From the IMG/VR virus record IMGVR_UViG_3300034375_004574, positions 1 through 20,302 of that record: DNA of 20,302 nt; one strand, 5' to 3'. A program made the position numbers and the translations under genes. The notes below the pieces were generated by a model. That model saw only the letters and a program-made list of their open reading frames with translations, searched no databases and was not told the DNA's origin. This document shows, one piece after another, positions 9,431 to 19,589 of this stretch. This DNA is from a virus. Within the stretch, counting starts at the first letter, position 1. The number at the start of each line of letters is the position of its first letter.

Positions 9431-9703
9431 ATGAACCCCGAACAAGCGTCCCAATTTCTTATGGATTACGGCCCAATTATTTGGACCGTATTTTTAATTA
9501 CCGCTCTTGTCGCGACTCTTATCAAAATTTGGCCATTCATATCTAAGGTTGTACACACCATCGAAATTATTTCTGAGCTTCCCGACAGGTTGGACAAGAT
9601 AGAGGCACGTCTAATGGGTGTCGAACATGAGGTTAAAACTAACGGCGGGTCAAGCATCAAAGACGCTGTAAAAAGAATTGAAGACCATTTAAATAAAATT
9701 TAA
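9431..9703 (+). CDS. Single-span membrane protein with coiled-coil tail (holin-like candidate), 90 residues
   Basis: The ATG follows the giant gene's TAG by four bases, with AGGGGA upstream. One hydrophobic segment covers about residues 14-36 (GPIIWTVFLITALVATLIKI). It is followed by an amphipathic, heptad-like region (residues 40-68) and the stretch NGGSSIKDAVKRIEDHL, whose final helix is charged. Small single-span phage proteins at the end of a virion operon are often holins or membrane anchors, but no endolysin is visible in this window, so lysis is an inference. It is the last gene before the convergent terminator. Confidence 0.8.
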   Translation: MNPEQASQFLMDYGPIIWTVFLITALVATLIKIWPFISKVVHTIEIISELPDRLDKIEARLMGVEHEVKTNGGSSIKDAVKRIEDHLNKI

Positions 9704-9739
9704 TGTCCCCGCAGCTAGGACGGTAACTGCGAGGACATT
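9702..9739. terminator. Stem-loop terminator between convergent operons
   Basis: Arms AATGTCCCCGCAG (9702-9714) and CTGCGAGGACATT (9727-9739) pair over 13 positions with one mismatch around a 12-base loop. The left arm overlaps the TAA of the membrane-protein gene. Read leftward, the hairpin is followed by an A/T-rich run containing TTTTATTT, as expected of an intrinsic terminator for the minus-strand operon. Read rightward it lacks a clear U-tract, so plus-strand termination is less certain. Confidence 0.7.
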
Positions 9740-9747
9740 CAATGTTA

Positions 9748-10161: not shown

Positions 10162-10250
10162 AAGTTTTGGTCTCTATCTATGCAGTGTGTTTCTGCAAGC
10201 TCCGCATCACTATCCATGTATTGGCAGTGGGGGCATTCATAGATAATCAT
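10155..10250 (-). CDS. Cys-rich microprotein, 31 residues (possible zinc knuckle)
   Basis: A very short gene between the polymerase and resolvase genes. It starts MIIYECPHCQYMD and carries Cys6, Cys9, His22 and Cys23 (CPHC...THC), enough ligands for one zinc. Support for translation is strong for its size: a full AGGAGG lies seven bases upstream, the ATG overlaps the polymerase TGA as ATGA, and its stop overlaps the resolvase start by seven bases. The function is unknown. It could be a cofactor for one of its neighbours, or it may mainly couple translation of the resolvase to that of the polymerase. Confidence 0.75.
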   Translation of the reverse strand: MIIYECPHCQYMDSDAELAETHCIDRDQNLW

Positions 10251-12016
10251 TTCCCGTCCTCCTGTGGAACCCAGTTTTCTACCTCGACAGCAAATCGAAC
10301 ATCGAAGTCAACCTCACCTGTTACGGCGTTGACGTCTTCCATTAATGTTCGTATCTTTTCTATGTATTGGGGTACTACGGATTCCTTAACCTCAAATGTA
10401 ATCGAGTCGTGGACTTGTAGCAACATACGACACTCCGGTCCTTCTAGCTCTTTAAAACATTTGACCATGATTCGTTCTACGATGTCTGCCCCTCCGCCTT
10501 GGATGAGGCTGTTCATGGCTTTGTATGCTTCGTTGCGGTTTTCGAAGTGTCGGACACGCCCAGACCATATGCGTATTTCGCCGGTCTGTTCTACTTTGGC
10601 TGTGCATCGTTCGTTTAGCCTGCGGAAGTGGGGGTAGGTGTCGAAGTAGTTTTGTCTGATTTGTTTGGCTGTTTCCTTGTCGACACCAAAGGCGTTCATC
10701 AGGCGTTGTTCTCCTGCCCCGTATTGCATGGAGTATACGAGGGTTTTGGTGTCGTGACGGGACATGCCTAGCTGTTTGGACATCTCGGTGAAGATGTCAC
10801 GCCCCTCGTTGAATACCTCTTTGAGTTCTTGTTCCCCAGCGTATGCGGTTGCGAGACGTAATTCGAGCTGCGAGAAGTCGGCATTGATAAGTGTGTAGCC
10901 ATCTTCCGGGATAAAGCATTCTTTAACTTTACCGTTCCATTCTTTGTCGGAACTTTTTGGAATTTGCTGCAAATTGGGTTCGGCGCAAGAAAGTCGGCCC
11001 GTAGCAGTCCCGTGGAGGCGATAACTGCACCTAAGTCGACCATCAACATCAACCAGGTCAATATAGGGCCTGTATGAGGCGCTGACGGCTTTTTGCCACC
11101 CCCGAAACTCTTTAATGAGCTTCGCAACGGGGTTTTCGAGCTTTTCTAGCATCAAATCGTACGCTAACATGGCCTCTTTGTCGAAACTCGGAGCACCAGT
11201 CTTCACACTCTGCTTCACTACCGGCAACCCAAGGTCATCAATCAAAAGTTTTTTCATCTGCTTCGGGCTTGCAGGATTTATCCCCAACTCTTTTTCTATC
11301 TGAACCATGCGGTCCTCACCACGCTGCACATACTGCTGAGCAAGCTGCACATCAATACGTACCCCGTGCCGCTTCATCGACAGCAACACACGAATCAGGT
11401 CCTGCTTGTGAGGCCACACAACATCCTCGACCTCACGCCACTGTTGCGTGTTGCGCAATAAGTCCCACAACCTCCACGTCAATACCGCATCAAGTACTGC
11501 GTAATCCCACATCTGCTGCCAAGTCGTGTTCTGCCAGCCTGTTTTCTTTTCTTTATCAATCTCTGGGTCTTTGACCTTGCCATCTACCTTCAGGTAATAC
11601 TGTGCCAGCGAATCCAAGCCCTTGTTGTACGGTTTGTTCTCGTTAATCAAGTGGGCCATAGCCGACACGTCAATGATGTCGGTGTGCTCCGTGTAGATAC
11701 CGATTGTTTCAAGCGACAGGATGTCGAATTGGGCGTTGACGAATACTAGGGTATTGTCTCCCTCTAGTGTCTGCTTGAGCAGGCTGAGAACTTCTGCACT
11801 GCAATTGTCACCTGTCGGGTGGTTGAAAGGAAAGTAATGACTATACGCTGTGCCGTCTACGACGGCTGCGATGCTGACACCGATACATTTGTCTTCGCCG
11901 CTGGCCACACTGAGCCCGGTAGCTTCGGTATCCACAGCAATAACTAAGTTAGGGTTACCTAACTTAGTTAGCACGGCTAAGCTTTCCGCATTGATGTCAT
12001 CAAATTTCAATGTCAT
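10247..12016 (-). CDS. polA: Family-A DNA polymerase with 3'-5' exonuclease, 589 residues
   Basis: Replicative phage Pol I-type polymerase without a 5'-3' nuclease domain, as in T7. Exonuclease: Asp29/Glu31 (DTEATG), Asn94...Asp98 (NAQFD), Tyr172...Asp176 (YAVLD). Polymerase: TATGRLS (337-343), motif A DFSQLELR with Asp380, motif B Arg420-Lys424-Tyr428-Tyr432-Gly433, motif C QVHD with Asp537. The residue aligned to E. coli Phe762 is Tyr428, as in T7. The residue after motif C Asp is Ser538 where E. coli has Glu883. The gene overlaps the helicase gene by 17 bases. AAGGA ends only two bases before the ATG, so a TTG two codons later (eight-base spacing) is an alternative start. The third-base preference of codons flips within the gene at roughly 11.0-11.2 kb. 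Confidence 0.97.
   Translation of the reverse strand: MTLKFDDINAESLAVLTKLGNPNLVIAVDTEATGLSVASGEDKCIGVSIAAVVDGTAYSHYFPFNHPTGDNCSAEVLSLLKQTLEGDNTLVFVNAQFDILSLETIGIYTEHTDIIDVSAMAHLINENKPYNKGLDSLAQYYLKVDGKVKDPEIDKEKKTGWQNTTWQQMWDYAVLDAVLTWRLWDLLRNTQQWREVEDVVWPHKQDLIRVLLSMKRHGVRIDVQLAQQYVQRGEDRMVQIEKELGINPASPKQMKKLLIDDLGLPVVKQSVKTGAPSFDKEAMLAYDLMLEKLENPVAKLIKEFRGWQKAVSASYRPYIDLVDVDGRLRCSYRLHGTATGRLSCAEPNLQQIPKSSDKEWNGKVKECFIPEDGYTLINADFSQLELRLATAYAGEQELKEVFNEGRDIFTEMSKQLGMSRHDTKTLVYSMQYGAGEQRLMNAFGVDKETAKQIRQNYFDTYPHFRRLNERCTAKVEQTGEIRIWSGRVRHFENRNEAYKAMNSLIQGGGADIVERIMVKCFKELEGPECRMLLQVHDSITFEVKESVVPQYIEKIRTLMEDVNAVTGEVDFDVRFAVEVENWVPQEDGK
10258..10263 (-). promoter_or_regulatory. Consensus Shine-Dalgarno AGGAGG for the 31-residue gene
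   Basis: The leftward strand reads AGGAGG followed by seven bases and ATG. It lies within the last codons of the polymerase gene and is the main evidence that the tiny downstream frame is translated. Confidence 0.75.
11941..11970. repeat. Perfect 13-bp inverted repeat inside the start of the polymerase gene
   Basis: Arms TAACTAAGTTAGG (11941-11953) and CCTAACTTAGTTA (11958-11970) are perfectly complementary around a four-base centre, GTTA. The repeat covers nucleotides 47-76 of the polymerase gene (residues about 16-26). As DNA it is a dyad suited to a dimeric protein; as RNA it gives a 13-bp, A/U-rich stem with a tetraloop. No U-tract follows, so it is not a classic terminator. Confidence 0.85.
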
Positions 12017-13238
12017 TGTCCTTTGCGAACTGGTTAAAAATGTTGCCCAGGTCTGTGGTGAAGCTTAAGTCGTCTGGGTTGCGGGTAATGTTGAACGGCT
12101 CGAACGTGGCACCCAACCTGTTCTTCAGCGTGTCGACTTGCAGCAGGTCCCCATCCACGGTCTTGAGCGACAGCACAAAGTCTACGTCTGTGGTGATGTA
12201 CGTCGAGCCGTACACATCCGACAGTTCCACACCTTTCTTCTGCCCATCGTTAGGTTTCTTGCGGTTGTGGTGAATCATCAGCATGGCACACGAGTACTTA
12301 GCCCGCACCATAGCCAGGTAGTGGATGAGGTTCTTGACTGCTTGCTCGTCCGTTAGTTCTTTGGAGCTGACCTTCTGCAGCGAGTCAATGACCAAGATGT
12401 CTGGCATGTGGTCGTTCATTATCTGGTCAAAGAAAATTTGACCCTCGGGCGTGTCGAGGTTGATGGGTGTACCAAACGGCGCGACCAGGAAGTTACGGTT
12501 CAGTGTGTTCTTGTCCGAGTAGCCCTTGCCGATGGTGGCCATAAAGTGGTTGAGCGGGGCAGCTGACATCTCCAACGACAGGAACAATACTTTCTTGCTG
12601 CCCGCCACGTTGTCCCAGGTAAGGAATTTCTTATCCCCTAAGGCCATGTGCGCCCCAAGAGCGATAGAAAACTGTGTCTTACCAGTACCTGGGTACCCTG
12701 TGATAAGTCCGAAGCCTCCCTGGGCCAGGAGGCCTTGCAGTATCCATTCAATCTTGAACTCAGCATCCACGAAATCCTGGTACCCGTAGATAAGTTTTGA
12801 TTCGCCCATGACTGGCGTGGTCTGGTTGGCCGACTCAATCATGCGTGTCAGGTCAACATTCTGCAGGGCATTGTACCCATGCTTCTGTCGGGCCCTGTTA
12901 ATAAAATCTGTTATGCGGCGGTCACGGTCACGGCGGTACTTGTACTTACCCCAACGGTCATCCGCATCGTACAGGGCAGCAGCAATGTGCTCGTCAGGCC
13001 AGCCAAGCTCAGCCCCCATGTGGGCCAGCTCCGACATCGCCGCAGACCTATCCTTCTTGGGAGGCCCAGCAAAGTATGTGGAATCCCTGTTGAACTTATC
13101 CAGAAACTCAGGGGTCCACGTAGCTAAAGCCTTGACATCCTCAAGAGGAGGCAACTCCCCCAACACCAAGTCAGTGCTGACAATCTTTCTGGCAGCTGCT
13201 ATATGCGCAAAGTCATCGAGACTATACTGCGTCTTCAC
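12000..13238 (-). CDS. RepA-like RecA-fold replicative helicase with PriCT-like N-terminal domain, 412 residues
   Basis: ATP-driven ring helicase expected to unwind the replication fork with the adjacent primase and polymerase. Residues 61-120 (RSAAMSELAHMGAELGW, then DDRWGKY and RRDRDRRI) look like a primase C-terminal (PriCT) domain. The motor follows: Walker A GYPGTGKT (181-188), LSLEMS with Glu223, Walker B ILVIDSLQ with Asp285, and HHNRKK at 323-328. The start is a GTG at 13238, chosen because AAGGAG lies seven bases upstream. The frame is closed by TGA 13 bases further upstream. It overlaps the primase gene by 17 bases, in the +1 frame relative to it. In many phages primase and this helicase are one protein; here they are separate. 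Confidence 0.88.
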   Translation of the reverse strand: MKTQYSLDDFAHIAAARKIVSTDLVLGELPPLEDVKALATWTPEFLDKFNRDSTYFAGPPKKDRSAAMSELAHMGAELGWPDEHIAAALYDADDRWGKYKYRRDRDRRITDFINRARQKHGYNALQNVDLTRMIESANQTTPVMGESKLIYGYQDFVDAEFKIEWILQGLLAQGGFGLITGYPGTGKTQFSIALGAHMALGDKKFLTWDNVAGSKKVLFLSLEMSAAPLNHFMATIGKGYSDKNTLNRNFLVAPFGTPINLDTPEGQIFFDQIMNDHMPDILVIDSLQKVSSKELTDEQAVKNLIHYLAMVRAKYSCAMLMIHHNRKKPNDGQKKGVELSDVYGSTYITTDVDFVLSLKTVDGDLLQVDTLKNRLGATFEPFNITRNPDDLSFTTDLGNIFNQFAKDNDIEI

Positions 13239-13797
13239 GTTCCCACTCCTTCACAATGACGGGCATGTTCCGTTTGTGATTAGTGGTACGTATGGGTCGA
13301 AGTATTTGGTCTGCGTCCCAGCCTGATGTATCCGCGTGCATCACGTAAGCAAGTGCCCTGTTTCTATCTTCCAGCGTTTCGATATCGTCAATAAATTTAT
13401 CTAGTTTCCAGTAGCAATGTTCATGTCCTTCGATGGACGACTGAACAATCAATGTCGGTGGCGGCACAAACATCTTGCCGTCCTCGGGTTCTTGGTCCCA
13501 CTCTCCTGGTGCGTTACCGTCGAAGTCTACCCACAGCATCCAACTACCCAGCACATTATCTTTGGCAGGGTTGGCTGCCTTGAAAAGAGCGGGCGAATAG
13601 AACACGTTAGCTTTGATGGCCGACCACTTCAGCGTGTGCCGGATGACGCCTTCGCGTTGGCGTGGCCACTCGAACATGTACGGAGTCCATTTGCCTTCGT
13701 GCTCGACAGGCAGATACACAAACGTTGGGGTATCCCTTACAGCTTCTTCGCCCCAGATGTAGTTGTAGAACTCTCGCAGTTCTGTGGTCGCGTCCAT
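13222..13797 (-). CDS. Archaeo-eukaryotic-type primase (PrimPol-like), 191 residues
   Basis: Primer-synthesising catalytic domain. The three AEP motifs are visible: WVDFD with Asp91 and Asp93 (metal binding), SSIEGHEHCYW at 120-130 with His127 (motif II), and DTSGWDADQILRP...TTNHK at 156-175 (motif III, with Asp156 or Asp161 and Arg167, Asn173, Lys175). AAGGA lies eight bases before the ATG. At 191 residues it is only the catalytic part; the PriCT-like domain and helicase normally fused behind it are encoded by the next gene, which overlaps by 17 bases. The gene is preceded by a strong hairpin in the longest gap of the operon, so its expression may differ from that of the upstream genes. Confidence 0.85.
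   Translation of the reverse strand: MDATTELREFYNYIWGEEAVRDTPTFVYLPVEHEGKWTPYMFEWPRQREGVIRHTLKWSAIKANVFYSPALFKAANPAKDNVLGSWMLWVDFDGNAPGEWDQEPEDGKMFVPPPTLIVQSSIEGHEHCYWKLDKFIDDIETLEDRNRALAYVMHADTSGWDADQILRPIRTTNHKRNMPVIVKEWEREDAV
13246..13251 (-). promoter_or_regulatory. Shine-Dalgarno AAGGAG that fixes the GTG start of the helicase gene
   Basis: AAGGAG on the minus strand, seven bases before GTG at 13238 and inside the last codons of the primase gene. No ATG is available nearby in this frame, and an in-frame TGA at 13251-13253 limits how far upstream the start can be. Confidence 0.75.
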
Positions 13798-13821
13798 TTA
13801 TATCGTCCTTAAGTTTAGAGT

Positions 13822-13860
13822 GTGGCCCCGGAGAAAAGAGAAATGAAACTCCGGGGCCAC
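13822..13860 (-). promoter_or_regulatory. Perfect 12-bp GC-rich hairpin between SSB-like and primase genes
   Basis: Arms GTGGCCCCGGAG (13822-13833) and CTCCGGGGCCAC (13849-13860) pair perfectly around a 15-base loop. In the leftward transcript the loop is pyrimidine-rich. There is no U-tract after it, so it looks more like an RNA-processing, stabilising or attenuating element than a full terminator. It occupies half of the 79-base gap and ends 24 bases before the primase ATG. Confidence 0.8.
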
Positions 13861-13876
13861 GTGCCCGTCAAGCTAG

Positions 13877-14365
13877 TTATGCAAAGGGGTTACTAGCTGC
13901 GGTCTGACGGGTCTTCTTCTGGGCTGGCTGGGGAGCCTCAGAAGCTTTTGCAATTTTGACATTCTTGATGTTCTGGAACATCTTACCAGCGTTGGCTCCC
14001 TTACCAGCGGAGCTGTAAAGCTGGAGAGTTCCGCGAAGTCCGATGAGGTCTTCACGGTCTACGTCGTTGACAGCTGCACGGTCAACGCCGAGGTCCATCA
14101 GACGGGCCACATAGTAGCCCAGCTTCTGACGCTCACGGTCAGTGAGGTTCTCGGGGTCGGCAGGCAACTCAAAGAGTTCGCTCTGCTTCTTGCCCTCATC
14201 GCCTACCAAGTATTCGATGATGACCCATGCACGGTCAGGGTACTTCTGGCTACCCTGCTTGACATAGACATCTCCGACAGTAAATTCATAAATACCGTCC
14301 TCCATGTCATACGACGGAGTTTCCGCCTCACTAGTGTCAATGCCATATTCATCTAACAGTCCCAT
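13877..14365 (-). CDS. Single-stranded-DNA-binding-like protein, 162 residues
   Basis: Probably coats single-stranded DNA for the polymerase and the Sak4-like ATPase encoded just upstream. Residues 23-70 alternate polar and hydrophobic residues (GIYEFTVGDVYVKQ, then RAWVIIEYLVGDEG), consistent with OB-fold strands; a helical stretch follows at 74-108, then another strand region (GLRGTLQLYSS), and a basic, low-complexity tail ending SNPFA. That tail lacks the acidic character of typical SSB tails. It resembles phage SSB-like families found beside Sak4, but I cannot show this without a profile search. AAAGGA lies six bases before the ATG. The gene is 18 bases downstream of the ATPase gene. Confidence 0.6.
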   Translation of the reverse strand: MGLLDEYGIDTSEAETPSYDMEDGIYEFTVGDVYVKQGSQKYPDRAWVIIEYLVGDEGKKQSELFELPADPENLTDRERQKLGYYVARLMDLGVDRAAVNDVDREDLIGLRGTLQLYSSAGKGANAGKMFQNIKNVKIAKASEAPQPAQKKTRQTAASNPFA

Positions 14366-19289: not shown

Positions 19290-19384
19290 CGGTTTCTTCT
19301 CCTACGCCCAGGCGTAAGCAAATAAATCGTAACTCCGAACAAATACAAACTTCCAAAACCCATCAAAGCAGCTAACTCAACCAT
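19286..19384 (-). CDS. Single-span membrane microprotein, 32 residues
   Basis: A tiny gene between the 70-residue unknown and the SNF2 gene. The protein is one hydrophobic helix (about 4-24: LAALMGFGSLYLFGVTIYLL) followed by TPGRRRRNR, a strongly basic tail that by the positive-inside rule would stay in the cytoplasm. Support: GGAGG nine bases before the ATG, an eight-base overlap with the upstream gene (ATGGTTGA) and a four-base ATGA overlap with SNF2. The function is unknown. A small inner-membrane regulator, an anti-host toxin-like peptide, or a tether for a neighbour are all possible. Confidence 0.72.
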   Translation of the reverse strand: MVELAALMGFGSLYLFGVTIYLLTPGRRRRNR

Positions 19385-19589
19385 TGCTTCTCGCCTCCAA
19401 TATCTTCATCGCCTCGTTGTGCCTCAAGTAGGCAAACTGGTAAGGCAACTGGTTACGTGTTGTCGGGTGCGGATACCTTCGAGCCAAACGTGCATACTGC
19501 TCAATTTCTTTGCGTAACTGTGCCTCGTCCATGTCATACAAATCATCAACCCACAATTCATTAGGGTCACTGAACTCGTCATCAATCAT
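19377..19589 (-). CDS. Acidic/helical protein of unknown function, 70 residues
   Basis: Unrecognised. The N-terminal 25 residues are very acidic (MIDDEFSDPNELWVDDLYDMDE); the rest is a charged helix (QLRKEIEQYARLARRYPH) and a second helix (YLRHNEAMKILEARSNG). The frame opens at a TTG (19604), with ATGs at 19595 and 19589. GGAGG at 19598-19602 is only two bases from the first ATG but eight from the second, so I start at 19589. That also gives the eight-base overlap seen at neighbouring junctions. An acidic N-terminus could mimic DNA or bind a basic partner; that is speculation. Confidence 0.75.
   Translation of the reverse strand: MIDDEFSDPNELWVDDLYDMDEAQLRKEIEQYARLARRYPHPTTRNQLPYQFAYLRHNEAMKILEARSNG
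19394..19398 (-). promoter_or_regulatory. Shine-Dalgarno GGAGG for the 32-residue membrane protein
   Basis: GGAGG on the minus strand, nine bases before the ATG at 19384 and inside the end of the 70-residue gene. It is the main support for the start of this very short gene. Confidence 0.65.

Follow-up and report, generated by a model that had tools for sequence, protein, structure and literature searches.

In Escherichia coli, the border of a stabilised operon segment can be protected by a 3' structure: of 34 such cases, 26 show a stable hairpin that directly precedes the mapped 3' end and lacks a U-tract. In those transport systems that are described, the gene stabilised is the one for the subunit needed in more copies (PMC5927463). 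A hairpin at galE, in the gal operon of the same species, blocks exonuclease and creates polarity (PMC11925234, PMC9239205). Among the highly structured transcript ends of Streptomyces clavuligerus, 353 of 535 have fewer than three U in 8 nt, and read-through at these U-lacking ends is intermediate between that at U-rich and that at unstructured ends (PMC8269248). Mycobacteria are reported in a review to use mainly terminators without a poly-U tail, the reference list of the same review including a title according to which a U-tract is required (PMC12288462). In phages, the T4 gene 32 mRNA, which encodes the single-stranded DNA-binding protein (SSB), has a 5' pseudoknot bound by gp32 and is processed by RNase E (PMC3014915). 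We recognised no description of a hairpin of SSB genes in a literature search of titles and abstract beginnings, with most subscription papers outside its reach, and a term count of the main text of a paper on Arthrobacter phages including Jasmine (PMC5513430) found 'hairpin', 'stem-loop', 'terminator' and 'intergenic' absent.

The window analysed here, a 20,302-nt stretch of viral DNA, contains a replication operon on its minus strand. Genes for a SNF2-type helicase, an exonuclease and PD-(D/E)XK proteins, a Sak4-like protein and an SSB-like protein (13877..14365) are followed, after a gap of 79 nt (13798-13876), by those for the N-terminal part of a primase (13222..13797; phrog_10514 DNA primase 1.1e-12, phrog_3123 1.6e-19), a helicase and a family A polymerase. 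The gap holds a hairpin with a perfect 12-bp stem (13822-13860, minus strand), which begins 16 nt past the stop codon of the SSB-like gene (13877-13879). In mRNA sense, its 5' arm GTGGCCCCGGAG (13849..13860) and its 3' arm CTCCGGGGCCAC (13822..13833) are 12 nt each and 100% complementary, and the 15-nt spacer between them forms the loop TTTCATTTCTCTTTT (13834..13848), with 14 pyrimidines out of 15 bases. The bases after the stem on the coding (minus) strand are ACTCTAAACT; there is no U-tract, and the next 8 nt contain 2 T. A Shine-Dalgarno-like (SD) motif of the primase gene, AAGGACG (13804..13810, minus strand), lies 11 nt past the stem. The original prediction had described a perfect 12-bp hairpin with a pyrimidine-rich loop and no U-tract in 79 bases kept ahead of the primase gene, all of which was confirmed. 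It had also called this gap the longest of the replication operon, which is true from the SNF2-type helicase to the polymerase; longer spaces exist at 10162-10246 (85 nt, between the polymerase and a resolvase-like ORF) and, longer still according to the ORF list, upstream at 19290-19581.

When perfect inverted repeats were listed for the whole window (arms of at least 9 nt, separation of at most 60 nt), eight were obtained and just one was longer than that of the hairpin. This 13-bp repeat, with a 4-nt loop (TAACTAAGTTAGG), is located within the 5' end of the polymerase gene (11941-11970). Folded as RNA, a 101-nt stretch around the hairpin gave -37.5 kcal/mol, compared with -25.1 ± 3.2 kcal/mol for shuffled versions (z -3.8, 0/200 as good), this shuffle-tested fold being that of the plus strand; the fold of the gap is -28.9 kcal/mol. 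Rfam gave no match above the gathering threshold in the window. By blastn against cultured phages, the region found no match and the gap alone found chance-level matches only (E 3 or worse).

The protein encoded upstream of the hairpin is termed SSB-like from its predicted fold and from weak family matches of its relatives. Neither Pfam nor PHROGs gave a family match for the window protein itself. Of 27 aligned relatives, three match phrog_378, single strand DNA binding protein, as did 4 of 14 proteins in an earlier set that included cultured phages, and one of the 27 matches a Pfam tail tube family instead. The AlphaFold model obtained with the 27-row alignment (pLDDT 83) displays three strands, helices and two strands, an order which we take to be that of an OB fold. 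Foldseek searches with this model returned nothing below E 0.001, the best match being an RPA at E 0.02. VIA-align placed first the pCF10 protein PrgE (Z 9.0; DNA-bound form, 8.7) and next RadD (about 8). Scores near 5, for which the tool cautions that an arrangement may be a common one, were obtained with Rim1 and the single-strand binding protein of Pf3. Nothing useful came from a search of solved-structure sequences with the SSB alignment (best E 0.48).

Searches with the SSB and primase proteins were used to collect related virus contigs; a polymerase-based scan of genome contigs yielded no relative. Many of the resulting loci duplicate one contig, and counts refer to distinct regions where so stated. 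The nearest cultured phages, Microbacterium phage Shocker, Arthrobacter phages Jasmine, Adat and Brad, and Cellulosimicrobium phage DS1, infect actinobacteria, and weaker primase matches were to Serratia, Pseudomonas and Brevundimonas phages. The host of the window phage is probably an actinobacterium. We refer below to the window and its close relatives as group A, and to a sister lineage (L064, L065, L066 and L069) as group B. The AAGGAC of the primase SD is retained in the group A relatives, the exceptions being L032, L033 and L034, which have a longer gap. In these three, the SSB-primase gap measures 217 nt (L032, 2618-2783) as against about 66-82 nt, and some 140 nt of unexplained extra DNA follow the hairpin.

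The hairpin is conserved and is not due to chance. The covariation set consisted of 17 distinct group A sequences (the window and 16 relatives) in a register-true alignment, the four group B sequences being held separate. Both sides have changed in 7 of the 12 pairs and yet 99.0% of the 203 cells are paired; none of 500 shuffles attained any of five covariation measures, and pairing fell to 33-55% when the partner was slid along the alignment. Comparison of the gap in related phages for paired changes had been proposed at the outset, and this check is passed both by the strongly kept pairing in the 17 sequences and by the recurrence of the hairpin in very diverged relatives. The 17 loops average 88% pyrimidine, with 3% G. 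A covariance model located the element, at the corresponding site, in 15 group A sources; its one match elsewhere in the 46 sources searched was weak (E 0.03, in L072). On the window, it scored 55.6 bits on the mRNA strand and 35.1 bits on the opposite one, a difference partly owing to the loop. In the stems of 41 hairpins, 21 cells are G-U and 8 are A-C (p 0.024), the search used making no difference between the two; this excess suggests that the element acts as RNA copied in the coding-strand sense. An alternative structure, in which the 5' arm pairs with the loop, was no better than chance.

Outside group A, what is kept is the position of the hairpin; distant lineages, among them cultured actinophages, have hairpins of unrelated sequence. 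Among 44 distinct regions 3' of an SSB stop codon, identified with an SSB profile, 39 have a hairpin scoring at least 30, and in 40 the observed score is equalled by 0/40 dinucleotide shuffles; many of the 44 are close relatives and are not independent. In L084 and L093 no hairpin exceeds chance, and those of L052, L072 and L083 are weaker, so the hairpin is not indispensable. In the 23 loci for which distances were tabulated, the stop-to-stem distance is 2-18 nt, as against 71 to 1165 nt from the stop to the primase match. Four of the 27 SSB loci stand outside this table, L084, L093, and the two Arthrobacter phages Brad and Jasmine (L047, L048), in which the stem is found 28-29 nt past the stop and overlaps the annotated primase start, so that its position is uncertain. 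The distance from SSB to primase exceeds 140 nt in 14 of the 27 loci, and 12 of these 14 have the stem 2-17 nt past the SSB stop, L084 and L093 having none. L125 and L127 entered no count. Four of 31 primase loci lack an SSB by the profile; L050 and L090 have a strong hairpin ahead of the primase, and L086 and L088 do not. Since the stem stays near the SSB stop even when the primase is distant, it appears to be an element of the SSB 3' end rather than a primase leader.

The association with SSB was also examined against other genes of the same loci. A hairpin of this kind is found within 30 nt of the stop in 30 of 33 SSB genes, compared with 21 of 362 other ORFs of at least 100 aa, the latter count including close relatives and the operon-end hairpins of L071 and L075 entered from both sides. 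By our own reading of the list, 17 of the 21 non-SSB rows correspond to the operon end. These counts indicate two main points of punctuation in these loci, the SSB gene and the end of the operon. In Brad and Jasmine, SSB is flanked on both sides by strong hairpins (L047, 2725-2771 and 3406-3446; L048, 2729-2775 and 3406-3446), the second being the one that overlaps the annotated primase start, and this start may be misplaced.

Most likely, the hairpin is a 3'-end element of SSB and belongs to a known kind; its mechanism we infer from precedent. Its linkage to the SSB 3' end makes 3'-end protection or partial termination more likely than a function for the primase as a 5' leader or at the 5' end. 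SSB is a protein used in stoichiometric amounts. This use, together with the malE-malF and gal precedents, leads us to prefer protection of the SSB segment as the explanation and to see partial termination as its chief competitor. We hold with moderate confidence that a protective 3' hairpin of the malE-malF kind, perhaps helped by partial termination, raises the SSB message over that for primase, helicase and polymerase. The hairpin would act within the polycistronic replication mRNA, as an RNA element that delimits the SSB segment on its 3' side. RNA polymerase would mostly read through the stem, because there is no U-tract and hardly any space for a promoter between the stem and the primase start. 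The primase-helicase-polymerase message would be lost faster, through an endonuclease cut or Rho-type termination followed by a 3'-to-5' exonuclease. If this exonuclease halts at the stem, the message for SSB and for the preceding recombination genes would persist, and more mRNA would be available for SSB than for the catalytic replication enzymes; partial termination of the U-lacking actinobacterial type may contribute to some extent. The proposal that the hairpin splits the operon thus remains the best reading of a conserved pairing, narrowed to SSB 3'-end protection or partial termination and with the effect on RNA still conjectural. Either of the two would yield the ratio of SSB to replication enzymes suggested in the original prediction.

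In agreement with the malE-malF and menBCE cases, a stable hairpin without a U-tract stands at a gene border inside one operon, its structure is conserved in relatives, and the upstream product may plausibly be needed in larger amounts (PMC5927463). The present case differs in that it concerns the replication operon of a probably actinobacterial phage, and in that the position is conserved with unrelated letters and the loop is long and pyrimidine-rich in the window's group. The galE hairpin is similar in following the first gene of its operon, where it blocks exonuclease and creates polarity; its stem is of 8 bp and the 3' end lies about 120 nt past the stop, inside the next gene, whereas the stems described here are of 11-19 bp and mostly less than 20 nt from the stop. 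With T4 gene 32, the locus shares a special RNA control on a phage SSB message, although here by a 3' hairpin. Overall, it represents an unusually well conserved internal punctuation of an operon, tied to one gene and found mostly in uncultured phages. The SSB product probably must outnumber the remaining replication machinery, and the locus offers a simple testable case of a phage tuning protein ratios from one message, with Shocker, Jasmine and DS1 as cultured relatives.

Partial termination at a U-lacking or I-shaped terminator is possible, if rather unlikely; some polymerases would stop at the stem and fewer transcripts would reach primase, helicase and polymerase. Stems of the AGAAGG...CCTTCT type, which presumably resemble actinobacterial terminators, are present in the distant relatives Shocker, DS1, L081, L085 and L087. 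The window fits the highly structured, U-lacking type of Streptomyces, with 2 T in 8 nt and -28.9 kcal/mol, a value for the whole gap, whereas the source folded 40 nt at 30 °C. Such stem-loops are common Streptomyces 3' ends with intermediate read-through, which makes partial termination conceivable for the SSB hairpin (PMC8269248), and I-shaped terminators have been reported in mycobacteria, according to the review cited above (PMC12288462). The SSB hairpin is like the actinobacterial U-lacking ends covered by these sources in its strong GC stem, in having fewer than 3 U in 8 nt and in lying close past a stop. It is unlike them in its intra-operon location, in the next SD lying only 11 nt away and in its 15-nt loop, not one of 4-8 nt. 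More generally, the SSB hairpin loops of 10-16 nt in group A exceed the 4-8 nt described as optimal and as resembling Streptomyces 3'-end hairpins (PMC8269248). The need of the actinobacterial polymerase for a U-tract is itself disputed, to judge from titles pointing both ways in the reference list of the review (PMC12288462).

The operon-end terminator of the window (9698..9743, minus strand), with a 6-nt loop CCGTCC and a U-rich tail, allowed a contrast within the same genome, which covers just the 13 group A phages, window included, whose locus showed an operon-end hairpin. In these phages, the operon-end hairpins have loops of 6-8 nt and a mean of 5.1 T in the next 8 nt, whereas the SSB hairpins have loops of 10-16 nt and a mean of 2.3 T. 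The operon-end hairpin has the shorter loop in 13/13 phages and more T after the stem in 12/13 (paired tests, p 0.0002 and 0.0005, respectively), which speaks against a terminator at SSB and indicates that the two sites are built differently in the same genome. For L060, two versions of the values were obtained, a loop of 11 nt (entered in this contrast) or of 9 nt, and an operon-end tail with 6 or with 4 T. The four group B loci yielded no second strong hairpin, so that the contrast cannot be made there. Unlike a canonical intrinsic terminator, the SSB stem is followed by no U-rich tract, its loop is of 15 nt and not 3-8 nt, and a terminator consensus scan of the window did not list it. More T follows the stem in a few relatives (5/8 in L071, L047 and L048; by eye in L125). 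Closeness to the stop, where ribosomes may cover the stem (PMC4824070), was considered as an argument against termination and dropped because operon-end hairpins are equally close to a stop. In group A, the loop CCGTCC (GGACGG on the other strand) of the operon-end terminator is kept while its stem varies (window 9698-9743, L056 8969-9008, L059 9284-9323, and others).

In group B, the loop has a feature of its own. Its sequence GCCTTTC faces the primase SD GAAAGGC (L064, 4944-5003; also L065, L066 and L069), with 8-9 nt of perfect complement overall, which shuffled loops attain in 0.08-0.8% of trials. The mean duplex is -12.7 kcal/mol, as against -4.8 kcal/mol in shuffles (0/500), and its strength is lost when loops and tails are swapped between groups A and B. 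At one flanking pair, L064 has C-G where the other three have U-A; the four contigs share ancestry and thus represent few events. A broader proposal, which we consider doubtful, is a lineage-wide rule of gene dosage, in which a freshly evolving, letter-independent SSB hairpin would set the ratio of SSB to replisome and the loop of one lineage would have been recruited to mask the primase ribosome-binding site, gating primase translation.

Cleavage of the stem by RNase III or another endonuclease, dividing the operon into two messages, is improbable. A perfect double helix conserved in an intercistronic gap would suit such an enzyme, but it is to SSB that the stem is tied, not to the gene downstream, and a helix of 12-14 bp with no internal loop, as seen in the window's group, is short by comparison with the E. 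coli and T7 substrates of RNase III.

We regard as very improbable that the loop controls primase translation by pairing with the primase SD in a pseudoknot, an idea backed by the group B complement. Even there, a linker of 3-4 nt after a stem of 13-14 bp would force the base of the stem to open, and in relatives with intervening DNA the hairpin is far from the primase start. For group A, where anti-SD-like loops had suggested the same pairing, it was rejected: loop-SD duplexes average -4.3 kcal/mol, as against -5.0 kcal/mol for shuffled loops (95% of shuffles being as good), and the mean longest match is 3.9, compared with 4.2 in shuffles. The converse, avoidance of the SD by group A loops, was seen in single rows; taken over all rows, it does not reach significance (P 0.09 for 16 sequences, 0.48 for the 12 most different).

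A palindrome acting at the DNA level, as a protein site or single-strand origin, would suit the nearby replication genes and the perfect arms of many relatives, and is hardly credible given that arm letters are unrelated across distant lineages with pairing retained, that the location is bound to a stop codon, and that the G-U excess, of modest significance, and the covariance model scores both favour the mRNA strand.

Other elements were noticed around the SSB gene. In L076, the SSB hairpin and the primase gene are separated by a tRNA-Met gene (366-433), and in L075 a tRNA-like stretch, not called by ARAGORN, is visible by eye in the same place. A second U-poor hairpin with a C-rich loop is located about 3 kb upstream of SSB in L071 (1979-2016), L072 (1879-1912) and L091 (1896-1933); in L072, it separates a 206-aa ORF from a 180-aa ORF which is exonuclease-like by eye.
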